DNA of 64,000 bases from Cylindrobasidium torrendii FP15055 ss-10 (taxonomy: Eukaryota; Basidiomycota; Agaricomycetes; Agaricales; Physalacriaceae): the NCBI GenBank assembly GCA_000934385.1, contig KN880481.1, positions 1 through 64,000 on the forward strand, given 5' to 3'. The translations under genes were made by a program, and so were the position numbers. Below the pieces are notes generated by a model. That model was not told the origin of the DNA, did not search any database, and was given only the letters and a program-made list of their open reading frames with translations. Below, piece after piece: positions 49,869-63,894 of the stretch; the stretch's first letter is position 1; every line of letters begins with the position of its first letter.

Positions 49869-50954
49869 TTAGGTGCATCCAAAGGTGGCAACATCGATGT
49901 CGAAGTTTGCGTTCAGACGGTTCTGATAAAGAAAATCAGCTCATTTCCAGTCAAGCAAATAATGAAGTCCACATACCCTCTGGTTGTTGTTCAACTGTGT
50001 CGTAAGACCACAAAGCGTGGCCTTGTTCGCCGCAGACGGGTCCGCCTCAAACGCAACATACGCATCGCCAAACCCAGTCCCAAAGTTGCCGTTGTTCAAG
50101 CGGTTCTGCAGGAGGACGGTGTTGCACTGAACATTCGCGGCACCGCTAAGGTTGAGTGCCTGCAGTTGAGCGGTCTGCTGCGCGTTGAGGCGGTTGGTGA
50201 TCTGGCAGTATGCGAGCTGGTTCGCAAAGACAGTGGGTGCAGCAGCCAAGGCGTCGTACGCAGCAGCAAGGCCAGACTGAATGGCGTTCAGTTGCTGGTC
50301 GAGGTTCCCAGCACACTGGACGTTGCTGAGGTTAATGCCGAGTGCAGTGACGCTGGTCTGCTGGGCCGTCGTGAGCTGGCTGGTGATAGCGCAAAGAGCG
50401 GCGGTGTTCCGCTGGCTTGGGTTGCGAGTATAAGCCTGGTAGGCTGCGCCGAGGCCGGCTTGAATGCCATTGAGCTGGTCGGTGATGGATGGGCACTGGA
50501 CGTTGAGGTTGATGCCGAGTGCGACGATCCTGCTACGTTGGGATGCTGAGAGTTGCGAGGTGATAGCACAAAGTGCGGCAGTGGTCTGAGCGTTCTGGTT
50601 TTGCGTGTAAGCCTGGTAGGCCGCGCCGAGGCCGGATTGGATGGCGTTCAGCTGGGTGAGGATGCTTGGGCATTGGACACGGCTGAAGTCGAAGCCAAGG
50701 TTCTGGAGTCTCGTCTGGAAATGATGTTAGACGTCGAAGAATGGCAAAGCGAGCGGAAGAATGCACCTTTTGAGCCTGGCTGAGCCCATTGAGGATCCTG
50801 CACAGGTTCTGGCGGTTGTTGGTCGACGGGTTCGAGCGGAAGGACGTGATGACGNNNNNNNNNNNNNNNNNNNNNNNNNNNNNNNNNNNNNNNNNNNNNN
50901 NNNNNNNNNNNNNNNNNNNNNNNNNNNNNNNNNNNNNNNNNNNNNNNNNNNNNN
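49869..50954 (-). CDS. Secreted modular repeat protein, copy A (5' end in assembly gap)
   Basis: Exons (complement): partial 50767..50854 (continuing into the N run), 49977..50714, 49869..49922; introns of 52 and 54 bp. Same architecture as copy C: degenerate ~60-residue modules, each with a LNAIQxGLxAAYQAY helix, an ALCAIT cysteine and a closing NVQC cysteine, ending DIDVATFGCT. The visible frame is intact. Exon 2 is 738 bp, three shorter than copy C. The signal peptide is not visible because the sequence from 50855 is N. Tandem with copy B in the same orientation. Confidence 0.8.
50855..50954. other. Assembly gap (100 N)
   Basis: Exactly 100 N, a conventional size for a gap of unknown length. 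It separates copy A from the 3' flank of copy B and hides the start and promoter of copy A. Confidence 0.95.
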
Positions 50955-51166
50955 GCTAGCTAGAAATGTGTCTCTGAGGGGCTCGAGGCGTGTTGACACA
51001 GTGAAAGAATGACAACAACAGACAGATGATATTTTGTGGCAAGATAATTACAAAGCACGCCCATGTACAACTTTCTCCGAATCCACCACAAATCTCAGCC
51101 AGATAAATAGGACATCGTAAAGGTCATAAAGAGTCGTAAAAGTAAGCAAGCGTAGCTCAAGTGCAT

Positions 51167-52266
51167 CCAAAAGTAGCAACATCGATATCAAAGTTTGCGT
51201 TCAGACGGTTCTGATAAAGAAAGTCAAGTCAGCTCATATCATCAAACAAAAAGCAAAGTCGACATACCCTCTGGTTGTTGTTCAACTGTGTCGTAAGACC
51301 ACAAAGTGTAGCCCTGTTCGCCGCAGACGGGTCCGCCTCAAACGCAACATACGCATCACCAAACCCAGTCCCAAAGTTTCCATTGTTCAAGCGGTTCTGC
51401 AGAAGGACGGTGTTGCACTGGACATTCGCGGCACCGCTAAGGTTGAGCGCCTGCAGTTGGGCGGTCTGCTGCGCGTTGAGGCGGTTGGTGATCTGGCAGT
51501 ATGCGAGCTGGTTTGCAAAGACCGTGGGTGCAGCGGCTAGAACATCGTACGCAGCAGCAAGGCCAGACTGAATGGCGTTGAGTTGCTGTGGTTCCCAGCA
51601 CACTGGACGTTACTGAGGTTAATGCCGATCGCAGTGACGCTGGTCTGCTGCGCTGTCGTGAGCTGGCTGGTGATAGCGCAAAGAGCAGCGGTGTTCCGCT
51701 GGCTTGGGTTGCGAGTATAAGCCTGGTAGGCCGCGCCGAGGCCAGCTTGAATGCCGTTGAGCTGGTCGGTGATGGATGGGCACTGGACGTTGAGGTTGAT
51801 GCCGAGTGCGACGATCCTGCTCCTCTGGGATGCCGAGAGTTGCGAAGTGATGGCACAAAGCGCGGCGGTGGTCTGAGCATTCTGGTTTTGCGTGTAAGCC
51901 TGGTAGGCCGCGCCGAGGCCGGATTGGATGGCGTTCAGCTGGGTGAGGATGCTCGGGCATTGGACACGGCTGAAGTTGAAGCCAAGGTTCTGGAGTCTCG
52001 TCTGGAAATGGTGTTAGAAGTCGAAGGATGGCAATGCAAAGGGATGAATGCACCTTTTGAGCTTGGCTGAGCCCATTGAGGATCCTGCACAGGTTCTGGC
52101 GGTTGTTGGTCGACGGGTTCGAGCGGTAGGACGTGATGACGACGCTCAAACCAATGCGGATACTCTCGAAAGAGACAGCGCGGTCCTCGAGCTCAACGGG
52201 GCTGGGAGCGGGAGCCGCAAGGGACACGGCAGCCAGAGCCAGAGTGAAGAAAGGTGTGAAGAGCAT
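51167..52266 (-). pseudogene. Secreted modular repeat protein, copy B (frameshifted)
   Basis: Exons (complement): 52054..52266, 51268..52001, 51167..51220; introns of 52 and 47 bp. It begins with a signal peptide (MLFTPFFTLALAAVSLA) and matches copies A, C and D. Near 51588 it is four bases shorter than the other three copies, in the codons that read NLDQQ in copy A. The frame shifts and stops at 51537..51539, inside module 4, leaving about 225 residues. The rest of the gene after the shift is still well conserved in the correct frame. The promoter also lacks the TATA element present in C and D. A young pseudogene is the simplest reading; a sequencing or assembly error next to a gap cannot be excluded. 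Confidence 0.75.
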
Positions 52267-53150
52267 TGTAGAAGAGGAGGAACCGGTGGCGGGGGATGTG
52301 GATGTGGATGGGAGCTGAGAGTTGCTGATTTTCCGGCTTTGACTGATACTTTTTCACAACGAGACATGGCGCGCATTCTTGGGAGCTAAGTCACGATGAT
52401 TGCATAGAGAGCTCAATGCGATGCGCCTGAGGAAGGCGCATCAGTCTGATTCTGCAGTTCATGGTGAGCGGGAGAGGCCAGGTCTAATAGTGCCCTGGCT
52501 TACCTAGCAATATTTCTATTCTTCGAAGACGGAAGCCTAAAATAGGTTGAAGACATATCGCTGTCGCTCCAAATATGTTTTAGAGTATCTCGAGGCTGTC
52601 CAGGAGTGCGTAACTTTGCTTGCTTGAGCGTGGGGAGGCCAATACGTGAATCGATTGAAGCAAGGGGGTAATTGCAATCACGCGGAGCGTCAAGAAGCGC
52701 CGAGAAATGAAGCTGTGTAGCGCAAAAGAGCCAGATCAATCGATTGAGAGCTTAACCAGAGAGTTCAAGTTGAACGTGAACGTTGAAGACGAAGGAAAGC
52801 TGCGCTTGTTGTATTGATTCCGTGACGTGTGACGTCATCTTCCCACGCTTGCATTGACCGTCTCTTCAATGTCACTGTTCGTTTCTTCTAGAGTTTTTCG
52901 CATACTGGCTCATCAAAGTACTTGGTACTTCGTAAAATATTGGCGCGTCCCAGGCAACAACTGCTGATTGACTCCCACAGGCATCAGCGCGCAACTATGG
53001 TGATCTCCTGGAATGCGAGCCTGATCAGGGCCGCCAGGCTTGGTTGAGTGTGAACTTCCATCATGACCATTCACTCGATTGACTTCGCTAGTTCGTGGGG
53101 ACTACACAGCTCCATGATTCGCGCTTGTAGGAATCTTGTGTGGCCATGAT
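52267..53150 (-). repeat. Duplicated promoter block of copy B
   Basis: Upstream of copy B, alignable by eye with 61535..62390 upstream of copy D (shared GGCGCGTCCCAGGCAACA, CACTCGATTGACTT, ACTACACAGCT). Its proximal ~400 bp also match, inverted, the promoter of copy C. No gene is seen inside. Confidence 0.75.
52420..52442. promoter_or_regulatory. 23-bp palindrome in promoter of copy B
   Basis: Perfect 9-bp arms GATGCGCCT / AGGCGCATC around a 5-bp spacer, ~155 bp upstream of the ATG. Conserved in copies C and D. Confidence 0.6.
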
Positions 53151-53388
53151 TGCCCCTTACTCCAACCGATTCACATCCTCGATTTCGCGCGGACCAGCAG
53201 CCCGCCCCGCGCCCAAGCAAGCAAAATTGTGCACTCCTGGATGGCCTCGGATGCTTTGAAACATATATGGAGCGACAGCGACATGTCTACAACTTATTTA
53301 GGCTCCCTTCTTCGAAGAACAGAGAAATCCGGCGCGCGCAATTAGACTTAACCCCTCCCGCTCACGACAGACCGCAGCGCAACAGTCT

Positions 53389-53411
53389 GATGCGCCTTCC
53401 TCAGGCGCATC
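53389..53411. promoter_or_regulatory. 23-bp palindrome in promoter of copy C
   Basis: Same element as at 52420..52442 in reverse orientation, ~160 bp upstream of the ATG at 53572. Confidence 0.6.
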
Positions 53412-53483
53412 GCATTGAGCTTTTCTATGCAATTATGGTGACTTGGCCCCCAAGAACGCGTACCGTGTCTTATAGCAAAAAAG

Positions 53484-53490
53484 TATAAAA
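53484..53490 (+). promoter_or_regulatory. TATA box of copy C
   Basis: TATAAAA, about 82 bp before the ATG at 53572. Confidence 0.65.
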
Positions 53491-53571
53491 CGGTCGACAA
53501 TCAAGGCTGGAAAGTCAGCAACTCTCAGCTCCCCATCTCCATCTCCAGCCACCGGTTCCTCCTTTTTCAAG

Positions 53572-54695
53572 ATGCTCTTCACGCCTTTCTTCACTCTGGC
53601 TCTTGCTGCCGTGTCCCTTGCGGCTCCCGCTCCCAGCCCCGTCGAGCTTGAGGACCGTGCTGTCACCTTTGAGAGCATTTCCATCGGTCTGACTGTCGTC
53701 ATCAACACCTACCGCTCCAGCCCGTCGACAAACAACCGCCTCAACCTCTGCAGGATTGTCAATGGGCTTTCTCAAGCACAGAAGGTGCGTCCCCTCTTTC
53801 CTTCCTCCTTTGCCATTCTTCGATTTCTGACTTTATTGCCATCTCCAGACGAGACTTCAAAGCCTCGGCTTCGACTTCAGCCGTCTTCAATGCACGACTA
53901 TCTGTTCTCAACTCAACGCTATCCAGCCCGGTCTCAGCCAGGCGTACCAGGCATACCTGGCAAACCCCAACACGCAGAACACCGCCGCACTCTGCGCCAT
54001 CACTACGCGGCTCACGGCATCCCAGCGAAGCAGGATCGCCGCACTCGGCATCACCCTCAACGTCCAATGCACAGCGACATCCATCACCGACCGGCTGAAC
54101 GCCATCCAAGCCGGCTTAGGCGCTGCGTATCAGGCTTATGTTCGCAACCCGACTCAACGCAACACTGCGGCGCTTTGTGCTATCACCACGCAGCTCACGG
54201 CGGCCCAGCAATCCGGTGTTGCTGCGCTCAACGTCAACCTCGGAAATGTTCAGTGTACTGCGAACGTTGACCAGCAGCTCAACGCTATCGCTCCCGGACT
54301 TGCAACGGCGTACGACGCCTTGGCCGCTGCACCCACGGTCTTTGCGAACCAGTTGGCGTTCTGCCAGATCACCAACGGCCTCAACGCACAGCAAACTGCT
54401 CAACTGCAAGCGCTTAACCTGAACGGTGCGGCGAATGTCCAGTGCGCCAACGTCCTTGCGCAAAATCGCTTGAACAACAACTTTGTTGCCGGGTTTGGCG
54501 ATGCGTACTTCGCATACCAGGCGAACCCGTCTGCGGCGAACCAGGCTACGCTTTGCACACTGACCGCTCAGCTCAACCGTAACCAAAGGGTCAGTTTCCT
54601 TCTCTTGATTCTCATGACCTTGCGCTGACGTTCATCTTCAGACTCGTCTACTCAACAACTTCAACATTGATGTCACTACCTTTGGATGCAACTAA
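53572..54695 (+). CDS. Secreted modular repeat protein, copy C (complete)
   Basis: Exons 53572..53784, 53849..54589, 54642..54695; introns of 64 and 52 bp; 335 residues. A cleavable signal peptide (about residues 1-18, MLFTPFFTLALAAVSLA) is followed by a short Pro/Glu propeptide-like part, then five degenerate modules of ~55-62 residues to the end. Each module has a helix of the form LNAIxxGLxxAYxAY, an LC or FC cysteine (LCAITTRL), a Gln-rich helix with a hydrophobic end (QxxxIAALGI), and a closing cysteine (NVQC). Module 1 is the most diverged (NLCRIVNGLSQ ... RLQC) and module 5 ends TFGCN. Both introns fall at the same point of the module: after AQK in module 1 and after NQR in module 5, each before Thr-Arg-Leu. 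No enzyme motif is present and I recognise no named family; a cell-wall or secreted structural or effector-like role is speculation. This is the best copy: no gap, TATA present, frame intact. Confidence 0.88.
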
Positions 54696-55700
54696 GTCCA
54701 TCTCAAGGGACTTTTTTACTCTTACGAACTTTTACGACTTTTTTTATCGGGAATTCGGTGAATACTGAGAACCTCACACATTACAGTATCGTGCTTTGTA
54801 AATTATTATCCTGTCACCAATCGAACGATGCGATGTTTCTATACCTCGTCTTGAGTGTCAACGCATTTCGCCAACTAGCTTCTATCATTGCTATGTATTC
54901 CTCTTTTGTGCCTCCAATCATTTGGATAGCCTTGTTCGCAGTTTGCGTCCCTAATCTTCACTCCAAATGCAGATAACATGCCTCCTGCGTTCTCTTTTCA
55001 GGTGTCCTATACCTTTCTCATTTAGCCCCAACCCTCAAAGACGGCGAGGCCCTCTGAGTAGTTGTGCCGCGGCGAAAGCGTGTCAACGCAATGGGCAGTT
55101 GAATTTACATGCTATCAGGTCGCGTTCAGCTCCGGATAAAAGCATGGTAATGTACAGCATTCTCACTCACTATTGATGATACTTGGATAAGTACAAAGTC
55201 TATTTCAAGGAGAGTAAGTATATGGCACTGGCAGTCCGCGCTCATCCAGCGCGTTTGAGAATTCGCCGAGTGCCAGTGTATGAATGGGCTTCGGGACTCT
55301 TCAGCGCAACGGTGATGCGAGGCAGGCGATGAGAAAAAGTAAGCACGCCGTATGCACACTGCATGGGTGTGAAGTTATCCCAACCAGACTCGGTCGTCCA
55401 ACATTGCTTGTCGCGCAGACATGTATACGAACAATTCGTGCCTACTAGGTAGCAATATAAGTTCCTCCGTGGTATCTAATTTTTTCCCCGTATCCTTTAA
55501 CCTCGAACACCGTAAACCGAAAGCTCGACCCCAAAAAACTGGAACATGTGAAGCCAGCGCGCAACCAACTCGGCTCGGACTTCAATCCGTCCGATTCAAT
55601 AACCATCTGATGAACAAAATACCTCAGCACCGAATAACAGCCTGAATGAAAACAACGAAAGAAATACAGATAACGCAATACACATAAGTACACACACGCT
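54696..55700. other. Intergenic, 3' flank of copy C
   Basis: The first ~80 bp resemble the 3' flanks of the other copies (CTTTTACGACTTT-type sequence, seen in reverse there). The rest holds no gene I can support. Confidence 0.5.
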
Positions 55701-55760
55701 TTCAATCCTACACACATGCTTTCAATCCTACACATATGCCTTCAATCCTACACACTCTGC
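55701..55760 (+). repeat. Three tandem 20-bp repeats
   Basis: Three consecutive 20-bp units beginning TTCAATCCTACACA, just beyond the 3' end of RPC2 and probably in its 3' UTR or terminator region. Confidence 0.75.
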
Positions 55761-55785
55761 CACTGTAAGCTTGCCACGCCCCTTT

Positions 55786-58700
55786 TTACTCCCCGGCATC
55801 AGCCAACACCAACCTGGGCACGACATTCATCGCCATCAACTCCTGGAACAGCAGCTTCGCCGCATACGGAATCGTCAACGTCGCCATCCGCTTCGCACTC
55901 TTGCAATACGTGCACCACCCTCCGCTTCCTCCTCCCGCGCTGGCGTTGGCACCTGGACTCCGCCCCATCAACCCACACCCCTCACACGCCGCAACCTCAA
56001 ACGCATCACTCGAAATCATCAACCTTTCCAAAAGCAACTGCGTCGCCCCATACCCAATCAAACAGTCCCTCTCCATCTCCCCCAGCCGGAGCCCTCCCTC
56101 GCGCGAGCGCCCCTCCGTGGGCTGCCGCGTGAGCGTGGCGCGCGGACCTCGAGCACGCGCGTGCATTTTGTCCATCACCATGTGTTCTGGAAGACGGGGA
56201 AGGAAGGTGAGTTAACGAGATACAGGGATGAAAAGAGGAAACAAGAGAAGCAAAAAATAAGGAAGAAAAAAAAAGCCCAAAGAAAAACAAGGGAGAGAGG
56301 GGAGGAAGAAACAAGGAATGAAACAAAAGAAAACCCCACGCACTCAATTTCTGATAATAAATCGGCCCAAAATACACATACGCCTCCATCGGCTCCCCGG
56401 TGATGCCACTCGTCAGCATATCCTTCCCCGCATAGCTGAACCCATGCTCCACCAGTATCCTCGACATATCCTCCACCTTCGAACCCCCAAACGCCGTCCC
56501 GTATTGTAGTGAGCCGGAGAGCGTCCCGGCTTTGCCTGCGAGGAGCTCTATCATCTTGCCCACGGTCATGCGCGAGGGGAACCCATGCGGGTTCATGATC
56601 GTATCTACAGCGTGAGGTTAGCAAACAACGAAAGCAAGAAGAAAAAACAAGAAAGAGCAACAAGCGAAAGAAAGACTACGCGACGGGAGAAAGTGAGGAA
56701 GAAAAAAGGCAAAAAAAACACATACCAGGACACACCCCCCCATCCCCAAACGGCATATCCTCCTGCCCCACAATCAACCCACACACCCCCTTCTGCCCAT
56801 GCCTCGACGAAAACTTATCCCCCAACTCCGGCCTCCTCGTCTGCCTCACCAACACCTTAATCAACGTCTGCTCATTCTCCGTATCACTAATCATCACTTT
56901 ATCAATATTCCCCGCAACAGGCGCCTTATAGCTCATCGGCGTGTTCTTGTAGGGCACCGCCGCCGCATGCCCGGTGAAGGAGTTATCCGTAGCGTTCGTG
57001 GGCGTTTGTTTGTTGATGAAGATATCGCCTGGGTCGACGCGTTCGCCTACGCCCGCGAGACCGTCGCCTTGGATGATGTCGTATTTCTTGAGCGGGACGC
57101 CGGAGTCGTCGAGGACTGCGTCTGCGAGACGGTCGAATGTGCCATTGGGATACTTCCGGATAAGTGTCGCGTTCTTCCGGAACACCTGGCATCGGCCGTA
57201 CCCTCTATCCAAGCTTGCCTGTGCATTGTCGTCGTCAGCATCACACCACAAATCGAACAAAAGACAAGAAAGGCGGAGAAGGAGACGAGAGGAAGAGGAA
57301 ACACACACACCTTATTCAAAATAAGCGCATCCTCAATATCATACCCCGAATACGCCATAACCGCCACAACCGCATTCTGCCCCGCCGGAAGCCGATCATA
57401 CCCCACCATCTCAATCGTCCTCGTCTTCACCATCGGCTGTTGCGGATACACACTCAAATACAACAACGTATCAATCCTCCTCAATTGGTTGTACCCTATA
57501 GCGCCGATGGCTTGTTTACCCATAGCGCACTGGTATGTATTGCGCGGAGACTGGTTGTGGTGGGGGTATGGGATGAGTCCGGCGACGGCACCCAGCAAAG
57601 TGAAGGGTTCGATCTCGAGGTGGGTCGTGGAGGGTGTGATGTCGGATTCGTATAACGCGATGTACGCGTCGTTTTCCTCGTTCACGTCGAGGTATTCGAC
57701 GAGACCGAGCTTGAGGAAGTCGTCGAACGAGGCTTTGTTTGCTTTCAGGAGCTGCCCAAAGGGAAAAGATTATTAGATGTTGGGGGGAGAGGAACCGAGG
57801 GAAACGTACATCAACATGCTCCCTCCTCACCCTCGAAACCCCGCCCTCCACAATAACCGCGGGCCGACATATCCTCCCTCCATCGCTCGCAATATGCACC
57901 GCCGCCTGATGATGATTGATATACACGCTCACAAACTCGCTCAGCCGCCTTGCACGCCTCAACTTGCGGAACGCAGCCACAAAACGCGCGGGGTATCGCG
58001 TGAGACCGATGATGGTGCCGTTGACATAGACGACAAAGACGTGCGGGGCGTATATCTCTGCGCCGGTCGCCAGGTTGATGTCTACCCAGAAAAAAATAGA
58101 AACAATGAGCTCTGGTGTTACACGGAAAAAAAGAAACGCTCACCCTCAACACCCAACATAAACGCAACCCTCACAATCGGCTCCTCATCCACATCCGTCG
58201 TAATATGCGTCATCAACGCCAAATTCTTCACAAGCCCACACGCCTCGCCCTCAGGCGTATCACTCGGACACAGCATCCCCCACTGACTCGGCTGCAACGC
58301 CCTCGGCCCACTCACCTTCCTCGTCTTCTCAAACTGCGACGCTATCCTTGTCATCATCCCCAGCGCAGCGATAAACGAGAGCCGTGAGAGAACGTGGGTA
58401 ACACCGGCGCGCTCCATGCGGAACCGCTTGAGAGACCAGTTCCCCGTCGAAATGGCGCGCACGAACCCGGCGGAGATGTGGTCCCCCATGAACTGCATCG
58501 TCTTGAACGCGTCGTACTCTGTCGTGCGCGACGCTTTCTTGAGGACTTTGTCTATTGCGGATTTCAGGTTCGACTGGTACGTCTTGAACAGGTCCTCGAA
58601 GAGGAGTGCAAGGAGCTGGCCGGCTCTGAGTGAGGGGAAAAAAACGACCATAAGCTCATGTTAAACGCACGGCATAACACTCCAAAAAAAAAGAAAGAAA

Positions 58701-60152
58701 GAAAAACTCACAATTCCAACCGCTTATTCCCCACATAATCCCTATCATCCACCATCTTCTCGTCGTGCACCGCAGCAATCACCCTCCTCGTCATCGTCGC
58801 AACAAAGATCGCCTTCGCACGGAAATCCAAGCCGCGCACAGGAACGTGCGAGAGCACAAGAGTCGCAAGCGCTTCCAACGCCTCTTCCCATGCCGGCCTC
58901 TTCCCCGCTGCTCCTCCTCCACCACCTCCTCCCCATCCTCCTCCTCCCCGATTCACCTTAACACGACTCCCAACATACTCCAACGCCTGCCTCCTCGTAA
59001 ACACCCCCAACTTGGCCGCATCCTCTAAATTCGCAGCAAATATCGCACGGTACGCTTCATCGCTCCCTGCCGTAAGCAGTAAAACCTCTTTGTCAGATTG
59101 GATCCCGAGCGCTTTGAGGGCGATGGCGATGGGCACGTCTTCGGAGATGGAGTTGTGCCGGAGGTAGATGCGGTCTTTTTTGGTTACGACGTAGGTTTTG
59201 GATTTTATTCCGCCGTGGGTTGAGCTGTTGTGGGTAGGTGGTTTAGGACGCTGGAGGATAAAGCAAGAGAAGAGAAGATAGGAGGAAAGAGAGAGGTCCT
59301 TGGGGTATTGGGCATGGGAATGGAAAGAGGACGAGTAGGAGGAACGACGAGTGGAAAGAGAAAGAAACGAAAAGATTTAGAGAAACTGGCACGCACGAAG
59401 TACACGAAGCCTGCACAACCCCCTTCACCGGATCCCTCTCCACAATAATCCGATTCTTACTCAACTGCTCCTGCACCAATATAACCTTCTCCGTCCCCTT
59501 CACAATAAAATACCCTCCAGGATCCAACGGGCATTCACTCATCCTCGCCAGCTCCTCCTCGCTCCTCCCACTCAAAAAGCACTTCCCACTCCTCAACATA
59601 ATCGGGATCCTACCAATTTGCGCGTTGCGCTTGACGATGTTCTTCCCGCGGGTGTACATGATGGTGACGATGATCGGCGCACTATAGGTGATATCCCGGA
59701 GCCTGCACTCGTGCGGCGTCACCTGCTGCGTCGCCACGCCGCTCTCGTTGCGGTCGGGAAACCCAATGTGGATGTCGGTGAACTTGAGCCAGAACCGCGG
59801 GTCGACGTCGGAGGTGATCTTGGCGTTCGCTTTGACGACATTCTTGATGTCGGCGTTGACGAAGTAGTCGAAGGAGTCGATGTGTTGTTTGACGAGCCCT
59901 TTGACTTTGAGGAAGGCGGGGAGGAGGAGCCATTTGTCCTGGGAGAGAGAGGGGGGTGTTAGTTCAGGATGCAATAGTACATGCTGAGGTTCAGCAGCAA
60001 CATTGACTACTACATGCTCCTCCCGCGGACAGAAGAACAAGAACAAGGACAGACAGACAACGCACCTCAACACTCTTAATCGGATCACTTATCCCAAGGC
60101 CTTTCCAGTTAGGCTGCGCCCAGTCCGGCGACGCGTCCGTGTCGTCCTCCAT
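55786..60152 (-). CDS. RET1: RNA polymerase III second-largest subunit RPC2
   Basis: Exons (complement): 60066..60152, 59397..59938, 58712..59224, 58144..58625, 57810..58081, 57311..57751, 56726..57218, 56344..56604, 55786..56186; 1163 residues. Catalytic-core subunit making tRNA, 5S and U6 RNA. Identified as Pol III rather than Pol II by [117 protein letters not shown], and a C-terminus with ERDCLIGYG and a CxxC...CxxC zinc site (CEGC, CTYC). The spacer between the two CxxC pairs is enlarged by a Gly/Ser/Ala insert, and another Gly-rich insert ([10 protein letters not shown]) interrupts residues ~310-325. Introns are long for this genome (127, 172, 86, 62, 58, 92, 121, 157 bp) and rich in pyrimidine runs. 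Copies C and D of the repeat family flank the gene. Confidence 0.95.
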
Positions 60153-60560
60153 CGCTCGAGTCGTCGCGGCACCACTTCAAAAATTCGATCGCTCGGATGC
60201 AGTTCATCATGACTGATGCAATCCACGTGGGAGGTGATGTGCCGCCGGCACAGCACAGATGTGTATACCTTCGTTACATGCAGGCCTTGAGTTTGTAGAA
60301 ACGGTCCTCACAGGAATAGGAAGTGCGACTACGAGAGAAGTTAAAACAAAAACATCGCATGAGGCGAAGCAATGGACACTAGAGCTCGATAGATGAGGCG
60401 GCTTGAGATAATGTCGCGAAAGTGTGGGCGCAAAAGGCGAAATGCAAACAACAACCATCTTTATTTGTGATAATTTACAAAGCAGGTGCCATGAATCCCA
60501 TCCCGGTAAACAAGAAAGTCGTAAAGGTCATAAGAATGAAATGCCCCCAAGAGTATGGAC
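60153..60560. promoter_or_regulatory. RPC2 promoter / 3' flank of copy D
   Basis: 408 bp shared by the start of RPC2 and the 3' side of copy D, both minus strand. The right part contains the AGTCGTAAAGGTCATAA sequence also found downstream of copies A and B, so family 3' DNA abuts the RPC2 promoter. Confidence 0.5.
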
Positions 60561-61534
60561 TTAGTTGCATCCAAAGGTGGTCACATCGATGTTGAGGTTG
60601 TTGCGCAGACGGTTCTGAAAGAAGGAAGATATCAGCTCGAGGACATGAAAACGAGTCCAAGGAAACACACCCTCTGGCCGTTGTTCAGCTGCGCCGTAAG
60701 CCCACAAAGCGTAGCCTGGTTCGCCGCAGTTGGGTTGGCCTGGTATGCAAAGTACGCATCCCCAAACCCAGCACCAAAGTTGTTGTTCAGGCGGTTCTGC
60801 AGGAGGACGTTGGTGCACTGCAGATTAGCGGCAGCGCTAAGGTTGAGTGCCTGGAGTTGAGTCGTCTGTTGAGCGCTGAGGCCGTTGGTAGCCTGGCAGA
60901 ATGCGAGCTGGTTCGCAAAGACAGTCGGGGCAGCAGCTAGGGCGTTGTACACGGTAGCAAGGCCGGGGGCGATAGCGTTGAGCTGCTGGTCGACGTTTGC
61001 AGCACACTGGACGTTGTTGAGGTTGACATTGAGCGCAGCAACACTGGATTGCTGGGCCGCCGTGAGCTGGGTGGTGATAGCACAAAGCGCCGCAGTGTTG
61101 CGTTGGGTCGGGTTGCGAACATAAGCCTGATATGCAGCGCCTAAGCCGGCTTGGATGGCGTTGAGCCGGTCGGTGATGGATGTCGCTGGGCATTGGACGT
61201 TGAGGGTGATGCCGAGTGCGGCGATCCTGCTTCGCTGGGATGCCGTGAGCCGCGTAGTGATGGCGCAGAGTTCGGCGGTGTTCTGCGTGTTGGGGTTTGC
61301 CAGGTATGCCTGGTACGCCTGGCTGAGACCGGGCTGGATAGCGTTGAGTTGAGAACAGATAGTCGTGNNNNNNNNNNNNNNNNNNNNNNNNNNNNNNNNN
61401 NNNNNNNNNNNNNNNNNNNNNNNNNNNNNNNNNNNNNNNNNNNNNNNNNNNNNNNNNNNNNNNNNNNNNNNNNNNNNNNNNNNNNNNNNNNNNNNNNNNN
61501 NNNNNNNNNNNNNNNNNNNNNNNNNNNAGAGCAT
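60561..61534 (-). CDS. Secreted modular repeat protein, copy D (internal assembly gap)
   Basis: Last exon 60561..60614, intron of 56 bp, then exon 2 from 60671 to the gap at 61368, and the first seven bases of exon 1 (61528..61534, ATGCTCT). Modules 2-5 are visible and closely match copy C (TTICSQLNAIQPGLSQAY, ITDRLNAIQAGLGAAYQAY, NVDQQLNAIAPGLATVY, ending DVTTFGCN). The visible frame is intact. Signal peptide and module 1 are inside the N run. A TATA box and the 23-bp palindrome are present upstream. Confidence 0.82.
61368..61527. other. Assembly gap (160 N)
   Basis: 160 N covering intron 1, module 1 and nearly all of exon 1 of copy D. By comparison with copy C about 300 bp would be expected here, so the stated size may be wrong. 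Confidence 0.9.
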
Positions 61535-61620: not shown

Positions 61621-61627
61621 TTTTATA
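61621..61627 (-). promoter_or_regulatory. TATA box of copy D
   Basis: Minus-strand TATAAAA, 87 bp before the ATG at 61534. The aligned site in copy B lacks this element. Confidence 0.6.
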
Positions 61628-61698
61628 CTTTTTCGCAACGAGACATGGCGCGCGTTCTTGGGAGATAAGTCACGATGATTGCATAGAGAGCTCAATGC

Positions 61699-61721
61699 GA
61701 TGCGCCTGAGGAAGGCGCATC
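61699..61721. promoter_or_regulatory. 23-bp palindrome in promoter of copy D
   Basis: Identical arms and spacer to the element at 52420..52442, ~165 bp upstream of the ATG. Confidence 0.6.
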
Positions 61722-62541
61722 AGTCTGTGGTTCTGCAGTTCATGGTGAGCGGGAGGGGCCAAGTCTAATAGTGCCCTGGCTTACCTAGCAATAACTCTAT
61801 TCTTCGAAGACGGAAGCCTAAAATTATTTGAAGACATGTCGCTGTTGCTCCAAAGATGTTTTGGAATATCTCGAGGCTGTCCAGGAGGCGCAACTTTGCT
61901 TGAGCGCGGGGGCCAATACGTGACGGTGATTTGATTGAGGCAAGGGGGTTATTGCAATCACGCGGAGCGTCGAGAAGTGCAAAAAAAATGAAACTGTGCG
62001 GTGCGCAAGAAGCTAAATCAATCGAGACCAGAAAGTTCAAGTTGAAGTCCAAGGGAAAGAAGGAAAGCTGCGCTCGTGGTATAGGTTCCGCGACGCGTGA
62101 CGTCATTTTCCCACGCATGCATTGATCGCGTCTTCAATGCCACCGTTCGTTTCCTCTCCGCATAAGTACTTACTGGCGCATCAGAGTACTTAGTGCTTGG
62201 TAATATATCGGCGCGTCCCAGGCAACAGCTGTCCGTGCATTCCCACAGGCATCAGCTGGGTGCGAGCGTGTGTGATCGGGGCTGCCCTTGGTTGCACTTC
62301 CATGACCGGCACTCACTCGATTGACTTGGCTGATTCATGGGCACTACACAGCTTCATTGTGCGCGCTTGCTGGAATCTCGTGTGGCTATTGCCACAACGG
62401 CTGCATTCACTGTCAGGCTTCAAGCTTCAGCTCGCTTCGTGATACGACTGCAAATAGTTTATGGGTTACGGAATGCCGCCTCTCCACAAAACGTATGAAT
62501 CGGCATTTATCGAACGCTGAAGTGAGTACGCAGCGCGTAGT

Positions 62542-63553
62542 CTATAGCGTCCTGATTCGAAGCACATCGCCTTCCTCAACTTGCGATGCCAGTGTCGAGC
62601 CATTGTCCAATTTGTTTGAATCGACACCTCCCTGATCGACAAATAGCCCTGTTGGCTGGGTGTGCTGTGTAAGCTTGCGATTCAAAAATAAACAGAATAA
62701 AGTACACACCGAAGTCATCTTCACTTTCATTGCGGCGGCCAACAAATCTAGGGCCTTTCCCGCCACTGTCGTCTGTGTCCCGCAGCATCAATCATCCATC
62801 GCTTTGAAGACAAGACTGTGTCTACCTTCTTGAGCCAAAAGATTCTCTCGTCTTCCCCATCCTCCACTCTTACGCGTACGTGCAAACGAGTAGCTGCAGG
62901 GACTGAGGCCGGCTTGTCTTTTGGGTCCGCGGGGACTGCCTTATGTCGCATCTTCATCATTTCGACTTTTTTGACTTGTACAGACTTTGGCGACGTGGAC
63001 GATGATGCTGAAGGAGTCGAGGAGCTCGTGGCTGTCTTAGCGGTCCCAACGCCAAAGTGTTTTGTAAGCAGCGCTCTTGCCTTGGAGTTCTCCCTGGTGT
63101 GTTCGCTGCCGCTGCTGGGCGTACATGCGTGTACATCAGGATAACGATGCCTGTGGTGGCGCTCAATCGTATGATTCGTTTGAGGAAATTATGAGATGTG
63201 GATGCGAGGACCGAAAGACGAAACGGAGAAGAGACAAGTGAATAAAGTACGCACTCTGCACAGAATGCCAACCTGCATCGCGTACACAACGCGTCTTTTT
63301 TGGCTTCTTCAGCCGCAAATGCACCCAAACTTGGCTTTTCACAATGTTCGAGAGAGCATCGATCCAAAGGTTGCGCGCCAGAGGGGGAACTTGTGTTGGA
63401 CGAGACGTGAGTGGGGCACTCATGGGCATCGGGCGTGATGTGATCCCTGCAGAAGTATGCTGTACAAGAGCATCGGATAGGTAGAAAGTCAACTTGGTGG
63501 CAATTGGATTGATTGCACTGCCGTCCGACGTCGAGCATGGCAGAGGTAGCCAT
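62542..63553 (-). CDS. AN1-type zinc-finger protein (CUZ1/ZFAND1-like)
   Basis: Exons (complement): 63255..63553, 62826..63150, 62710..62772, 62542..62631; introns of 104, 53 and 78 bp; 258 residues. Two AN1 fingers: CNQSNCHQVDFLPIRC with CRDHITPDAHEC, and CSLEHCEKPSL..., CTRCRLAFCAE joined by the first splice to HRYPDVHAC. A Ser/Lys-rich linker follows, then a C-terminal ubiquitin-like part (RIFWLKK, TVAGKALDLLAAAMKV, EEGDVLRIRTL). Proteins of this layout bind the proteasome and Cdc48/p97, helping clear stress granules and protecting against arsenite. The assignment rests on domain order; a paralogous AN1 protein is possible. Its 5' region faces the spacer 63554..63894. Confidence 0.88.
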
Positions 63554-63894
63554 GATGATAATGTGAGAGTAAGTGGTAGAATGCCGCCGCCGGCATCCAT
63601 TGCGTTGATGCCAGCAATTAATGCAGCGTCTTGGAATTTAGATTTCATTCGCCTCGAAGGCTGCCTGTAGGATACATACTAACTTACATACTCACTTTGC
63701 ATAGCAGCCCATTGACCCAGCATAGCGAAGCGAATCTCAACGTCCTGCATCACCACATTTTTCAGCCAGCACCATCGAGGCGATTGCAATGCAACAAGAA
63801 AAGAGACCTTTGAAGAACAGAGAAATACAGACATTAAATACTGGACGTAGATACAAGGAAAAGGAAAAGAAAGTAAACGTTATAAAGGCTGAAG
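63554..63894. other. Intergenic
   Basis: Promoter of the AN1 gene and 3' flank of the next minus-strand gene; no gene seen. Confidence 0.5.

Follow-up and report, generated by a model that had tools for sequence, protein, structure and literature searches.

Hydrophobins are abundant, secreted, cysteine-containing fungal proteins encoded by multigene families, and the HsbA proteins (which we take to correspond to PF12296, the HsbA / cell-wall mannoprotein family) are helical, secreted, surface-binding proteins of fungi and are not known to contain a repeated two-cysteine module. Chains of small helical modules that vary in number and are duplicated and shuffled make up the secreted (L)WY effectors of Phytophthora, in which, according to PMC11799481, conservation is limited to buried residues and the LWY modules, which act within the host, fold into five helices. 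In the case of Rsp3 of Ustilago maydis, PMC5923269 describes a secreted protein without a glycosylphosphatidylinositol (GPI) anchor that coats hyphae, contains cysteines and varies in repeat number; in it, a Gln/Pro-rich region is followed by a single Cys-rich region, and the repeats form a domain of their own. Here we describe a family of putatively secreted proteins from the wood-inhabiting mushroom Cylindrobasidium torrendii FP15055 ss-10 (Agaricales, Physalacriaceae) that consist of a variable number of two-cysteine modules, starting from four gene copies (A-D) in the first 64,000 bases of contig KN880481.1 (the window; the genome totals 29.3 Mb).

The product of copy C starts with a signal peptide (judged by eye), which is followed by a short pro-segment with LEDR at its end and by five modules of 56-64 residues that end at Cys 86, 145, 207, 270 and 334. 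The order within the modules is LNAI in predicted helix 1, GLxxAYxAY in helix 2, the first cysteine in helix 3, QxxxIxAL in helix 4 and finally VQC, and the modules are mutually related in all ten pairs, with z scores (1000 shuffles per pair) from 6.1 (modules 4 and 5) to 25.8 (modules 2 and 3). Of 66 modules, 64 have both cysteines, and the other two are ends that are broken off or over-read; in the regular members the cysteines follow each other at spacings of 25-28 and 34-38, with one extra spacing of 4 in C and P0002. A preliminary description of the window had assigned to every copy a signal peptide and five two-cysteine modules. All four copies are indeed present (A running into a gap), but this build is whole only in C, B being frame-broken and A and D containing runs of N; likewise, the two-cysteine pattern holds except for an additional cysteine early in module 2 of C and D, which brings the total of C to 11 instead of 10. 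Signal peptides, judged by eye, are found at all 15 retrieved starts, each followed by an acidic-Arg site that reads LEDR in eight, LDDR in two, LEER in one and VEDR, VEER or FEER in the remaining four. These sites (LxxR in 11 of the 15 starts, VxxR or FxxR in four) are putative cleavage sites of the Kex2 type; LxxR is known, from PMC8528282, as an expanded Kex2 pro-domain motif in which other aliphatic residues may replace Leu.

The sequence facts of the preliminary description stand, and more strongly than it stated them, except that five modules is not a family constant but one of several counts. A module profile counts four modules in P0009, six in P0002 and P0007 and seven in P0001 and P0003, with five occurring as well, and the counts at the genomic loci match those of the annotated proteins. 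The family architecture is a first module, one to four internal modules, a penultimate and a last module. In a tree of 66 modules from 13 proteins (61 columns, which is few for that many rows), the first (n = 11, 100/100), penultimate (n = 13, 98/99) and last modules (n = 13, 100/100) each form a single branch, whereas the 29 internal modules require two changes. This grouping of the end modules by position implies that three positional classes were already established when the genes began to multiply and that only the inner number varies. Furthermore, a phase 0 intron is found at a common column in 12 of 17 first modules (the misses being two from C318, two from C71, probably because of a strict text pattern, and an unexplained one from C16) and in 18 of 19 last modules (C16 was missed), where the test required Gln-Arg/Lys ahead of the donor, which in part presupposes the site, and where some genes offer further candidate acceptors. 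The shared column suits a descent of both end modules from one intron-bearing ancestral module. Because the end modules group by position and share the intron site, the internal duplication is older than the gene duplications, as had been proposed.

At the level of the genome, a protein search yielded 44 matches, which we assign to about 22 places distributed over 14 contigs; some of these places are truncated at contig ends or decayed. Outside the genome, a set of 5.8 billion proteins was searched twice with whole proteins and once with two modules. The whole-protein searches scored the 7996 and 7999 candidates with the most shared words and may therefore have overlooked distant relatives; the two-module search had 5074 candidates. 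Twelve of the 13 proteins matched by copy C carry the name of C. torrendii FP15055 ss-10; the sole other homologue is the unnamed P0012 (source 'lgn'), which matches 51% of copy C at 58% identity, and no other relatives were present among the candidates scored. Within this reach, the family is lineage-specific, as was first supposed. Searches of Pfam, NCBIfam and PDB returned nothing significant: with hmmscan against Pfam-A, copy C had two weak matches to domains of unknown function (E-values 0.056 and 0.14, below the cut-off, E up to 10 being allowed), and 13 two-module rows matched nine Pfam families with best E-values of 0.042-0.82, bearing in mind that the HMMER filters discard most matches above 0.1. 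The absence of a named domain, noted in the preliminary description, is thereby supported.

Compared with the described systems, the family resembles the (L)WY effectors as a putatively secreted chain of small, helical modules that vary in number and are duplicated and shuffled, with conservation centred on hydrophobic and Cys positions, but differs in its modules of about 60 residues with four predicted helices and two cysteines, in its purifying selection (see below) and in having no significant Pfam match; no (L)WY family occurs among its Pfam matches. With Rsp3 it shares the predicted secretion, the cysteines, the varying repeat number and the lack of a recognisable GPI signal, yet the two-cysteine modules extend throughout: they begin where the pro-segment ends and take up the rest of the protein, and Pro makes up 1.6-4.2% of the mature protein, which is not the layout of Rsp3. 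PF12296 is absent from the Pfam matches of copy C (E up to 10) and of the two-module rows. In contrast to hydrophobins, the cysteines are spaced as given above and the modules are helical in the models; 14 proteins contain no adjacent cysteines and hence no eight-cysteine pattern with CC pairs.

The family genes also share promoter elements (Table 1). In a set of 17 genes with a located start codon, which includes D and C16 and to which the promoter of copy A does not belong, the 19-base core GACCCCTYCCGYTCACCAT of box 1 occurs with at most three mismatches in 16 promoters, 203-254 bases upstream of the start, as counted on the same promoters from which the boxes were read; the C16 promoter has it with four mismatches about 190 bases upstream, and four promoters (C97b, C18, C246 and C472) contain a second copy at 347-380. 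Within 217 kb (the window plus 18 loci, both strands), there are 21 sites with at most three mismatches, 20 of them in family promoters and one in a relic (L029:5929), and four more with four mismatches, namely that of C16 and three elsewhere. This near confinement of the box to family genes within the 217 kb is a new finding. Since the core is kept between C and C18, whose silent sites are nearly saturated (synonymous distance 1.78), it is probably functional; CCCCT is similar to a stress element known from yeast. Box 2 is less general (at most three mismatches in nine of the 16 promoters examined), and the TATA-type element of copy B is present only in a version with three mismatches. The relic is a solo family promoter, box 1 included, at L029:5850-5960, with no family gene behind it. 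Near family gene C71a, a gene start with a signal peptide is found from about L029:7397 (+), its product being, by eye, presumably similar to thaumatin-type secreted proteins.

Table 1. Family gene copies in the window and their promoter elements
Feature	Positions	Strand	Remarks
Copy A	49869..50854	-	gene model: exons 50854 (partial)-50767, 50714-49977, 49922-49869
Copy B	51157..52266	-	gene model: exons 52266-52054, 52001-51268, 51210-51157
Copy C	53572..54695	+	exons 53572-53784, 53849-54589, 54642-54695; intact, 335 residues
Copy D	60561..61534	-	start codon 61534; modules 2-5; last exon 60614-60561
Box 1 (ATTAGACTTGACCCCTYCCGYTCACCAT-like), copy B	52461..52488	-	begins at -222; 3 mismatches
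Box 1, copy C	53341..53368	+	begins at -231; 3 mismatches
Box 1, copy D	61742..61769	-	begins at -235; 1 mismatch
Box 2 (imperfect palindrome CTGATGCGCCTTCCTCAGGCGCATC), copy B	52420..52444	-	
Box 2, copy C	53387..53411	+	
Box 2, copy D	61699..61723	-	
TATA-type element AAAAAGTATAAAA, copy C	53478..53490	+	-94
TATA-type element, copy D	61621..61633	-	-99

The copies are under purifying selection, the ratio of nonsynonymous (dN) to synonymous distance (dS) being 0.03-0.39 in all 42 comparisons, each of which covers whole exon-2 regions. Among the copies of the window, dS amounts to 0.2-0.8 and varies along the gene: A and B are separated by a dN of 0.007-0.008 and a dS of 0.22-0.26, and C and D by a dS of 0.37; most remaining pairs have a dS from 0.4 to over 1, the lowest value being 0.14 (C318a-C318b). 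The identity between copies shifts along their length. In the 400 bases upstream of the start, B and D are 91-98% identical per 100-base window, whereas from the first exon up to 1000 bases B is 90-99% identical to A and just 68-87% to D. Similarly, C and D are 97-100% identical in the initial three windows compared in exon 2 and 76-88% in the following four, and the best breakpoint, near the end of module 3, separates 97.7% from 79.6% identity, a contrast equalled in none of 2000 codon permutations. The copies are thus mosaics and appear to exchange sequence. In view of the synonymous distances and the mosaicism, the recent gene duplication that had been suggested does not describe the copies fully.

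As for the individual copies, modules 2-4 of copy A are complete, module 5 spans intron 2 and module 1 is partial, the start and signal peptide being swallowed by a run of 100 N (50855-50954); a run of 160 N (61368-61527) does the same to the signal peptide and module 1 of copy D. These runs, exactly 100 and 160 bases long, are perhaps assembly gaps in near-identical repeats, or else withheld stretches of sequence. Copy B has a frame break near 51590, after which the later modules lie in another frame, and its five modules are recognisable piecewise; with a dN of 0.008 against a dS of 0.26 between these later modules and A, the break would have arisen very recently or reflect an error of the assembly. 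P0005 is an intact near-copy, identical to the pieces of B at 71/71, 117/119 and 106/107 residues and to the second exon of copy A at 242/246. A gene for the second-largest RNA polymerase subunit lies in several pieces (Pfam Rpb2 domains 1, 3, 5 and 6) at 56006-60088 (-), i.e. between C and D, so that a housekeeping gene interrupts the family cluster, and an open reading frame with an AN1-type zinc finger (Pfam) is located at 62957-63637 (-). Elsewhere, L032 (C246:33613-34457) is a decayed family copy, and the annotated protein P0013, presumably from the same contig, is by eye mostly a wrong-frame translation.

Of two structure models, one predicts four short helices in each of modules 2-5 and, in module 1, a merging of the first two helices into one helix of low confidence; the other, a two-module model, has four helices in each of its modules. 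Together with the conserved cysteines, these models bear out the regular helical, two-cysteine module, though as four short helices and not as the repeating helical hairpin that had been expected. The rigid solenoid suggested at the same time has no clear support from them: the predicted template modelling scores (pTM) are 0.42 and 0.49, and where the two-module model has weak fold matches, these fall mostly on a single module. Judged from these models, separate beads would suit the fold matches at least as well, and the most economical interpretation of the cysteines would be a single disulfide in each module. Fold searches with the models, which also bear on the WY/LWY module fold, gave no significant match among the families listed.

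The composition of the mature proteins is biased. Counted over 11 proteins (P0008, P0012, P0013, P0014 and P0015 being left out), the 3632 mature residues include neither His nor Met and just 20 Lys, 15 Glu and 7 Trp, whereas Ala, Asn, Gln, Thr and Leu together account for 59%, Arg for 5.0% and Tyr for 2.9%. Lys, His, Met and Trp thus number 27 in 3632 residues, against 63 in 518 residues of the RNA polymerase pieces of the same window, a control that consists of one cytosolic gene. The absence of His and Met is new with respect to the preliminary description. With regard to the other members, the two His of P0014 are both located upstream of its signal peptide, P0012 has two Lys, two Trp and one Met (its first residue), and a 169-residue exon-2 piece of the diverged C16 member contains no Lys, His or Met, its Trp content being 4.1%. 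Ten proteins have isoelectric points of 8.75-9.93, almost all of their basic residues being Arg, and mature C has a net charge of +9. In terms of amino-acid synthesis cost, nine proteins come to 20.0-22.0 versus 23.9 for the RNA polymerase pieces. A low-cost composition is expected of extracellular proteins that escape recycling, as PMC7005277 reports for bacteria, and cheap extracellular synthesis is a known cause that suffices to explain why His, Met and Trp have been lost.

Taking the above together, we tentatively favour the interpretation that this is a family restricted to its lineage, whose members are abundant, secreted and multivalent proteins of the surface or matrix. The signal peptide and the short pro-segment would be removed, the latter by cleavage at the LxxR-like site, leaving a mature basic protein in which compact four-helix modules, all about 60 residues long and presumably each stapled by one disulfide between the Cys in helix 3 and the Cys after helix 4, are strung into a chain. 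The fixed first, penultimate and last modules would constitute the ends, and the one to four interchangeable internal modules would set the length. Such a chain, presumably highly expressed, could bind with low specificity and multivalently to the hyphal surface, the secreted matrix or the substrate, the number of modules tuning reach and avidity. Several points weigh against this interpretation: inspection by eye revealed neither a GPI signal nor any known wall-binding motif, the low pTM of both models makes the shape and the contacts between modules uncertain, the composition bias might stem from one biased ancestral module, and a role as ligand carrier, effector or toxin would be almost as compatible with the findings. 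A more far-reaching version would be a self-contained architecture that arose in one mushroom lineage: extendable chains of disulfide-stapled four-helix beads, with dedicated end modules and a length given by the one to four exchangeable inner ones, would be homogenised by recombination among some twenty genes, share a family promoter code and be free of His and Met and very poor in Lys, Trp and Glu for the sake of inertness in decaying wood. This version we regard as unlikely when taken as a whole.

With respect to these other roles, the helical module with its two conserved cysteines and the hydrophobic and Tyr positions conserved inside the helices would also be in line with lipid-, sterol- or aromatic-binding four-helix bundles, arrayed to sequester hydrophobic compounds like wood extractives, in the manner of some other helical secreted binding proteins; we consider such a ligand carrier an improbable but real contender. 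Rather unlikely, in our view, is an array of plant- or microbe-directed effectors with shuffled modules, comparable to the oomycete (L)WY effectors or Rsp3. Cylindrobasidium torrendii is a saprotroph or weak decayer and the whole exon-2 regions are under purifying selection, both of which argue against this role, whereas the signal peptide, the modular build with varying module number and the recombining copies are in agreement with it. The same holds for the LxxR-like pro-segment, which PMC8528282 reports for about 30% of 120 effectors, and for the likewise varying repeat number of Rsp3 in PMC5923269.

A secreted antimicrobial or defence protein that is basic, disulfide-stapled and present in many copies would match the isoelectric points, the dominance of Arg and the copy number, but the charge density is low, the proteins being rich in Ala, Asn, Gln and Thr and not strongly cationic, and no toxin family was matched in the searches of Pfam and the other libraries, so that we hold this role to be quite improbable. 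An inert structural coat, which would exclude His and Met and nearly exclude Lys, Trp and Glu in order to withstand the quinones and radicals of wood decay, builds on the same composition counts but is very unlikely, given that Tyr is retained, that the diverged C16 member is comparatively rich in Trp, that a low synthesis cost accounts equally well for the loss of His, Met and Trp, and that the comparison rests on a single cytosolic gene.

For the family itself, the preferred surface or matrix reading aside, the findings provide a clean case of a protein module that has been arrayed, capped and amplified in one lineage, with the positional classes, the common intron site, the changing module number and the recombination of copies all visible in one genome, and they illustrate that domain libraries can overlook a whole expanded family of putatively secreted proteins. 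If the beads are stable, they would represent a natural, extendable and lysine-poor scaffold, and the promoter box makes the condition under which the family is used directly testable through expression.
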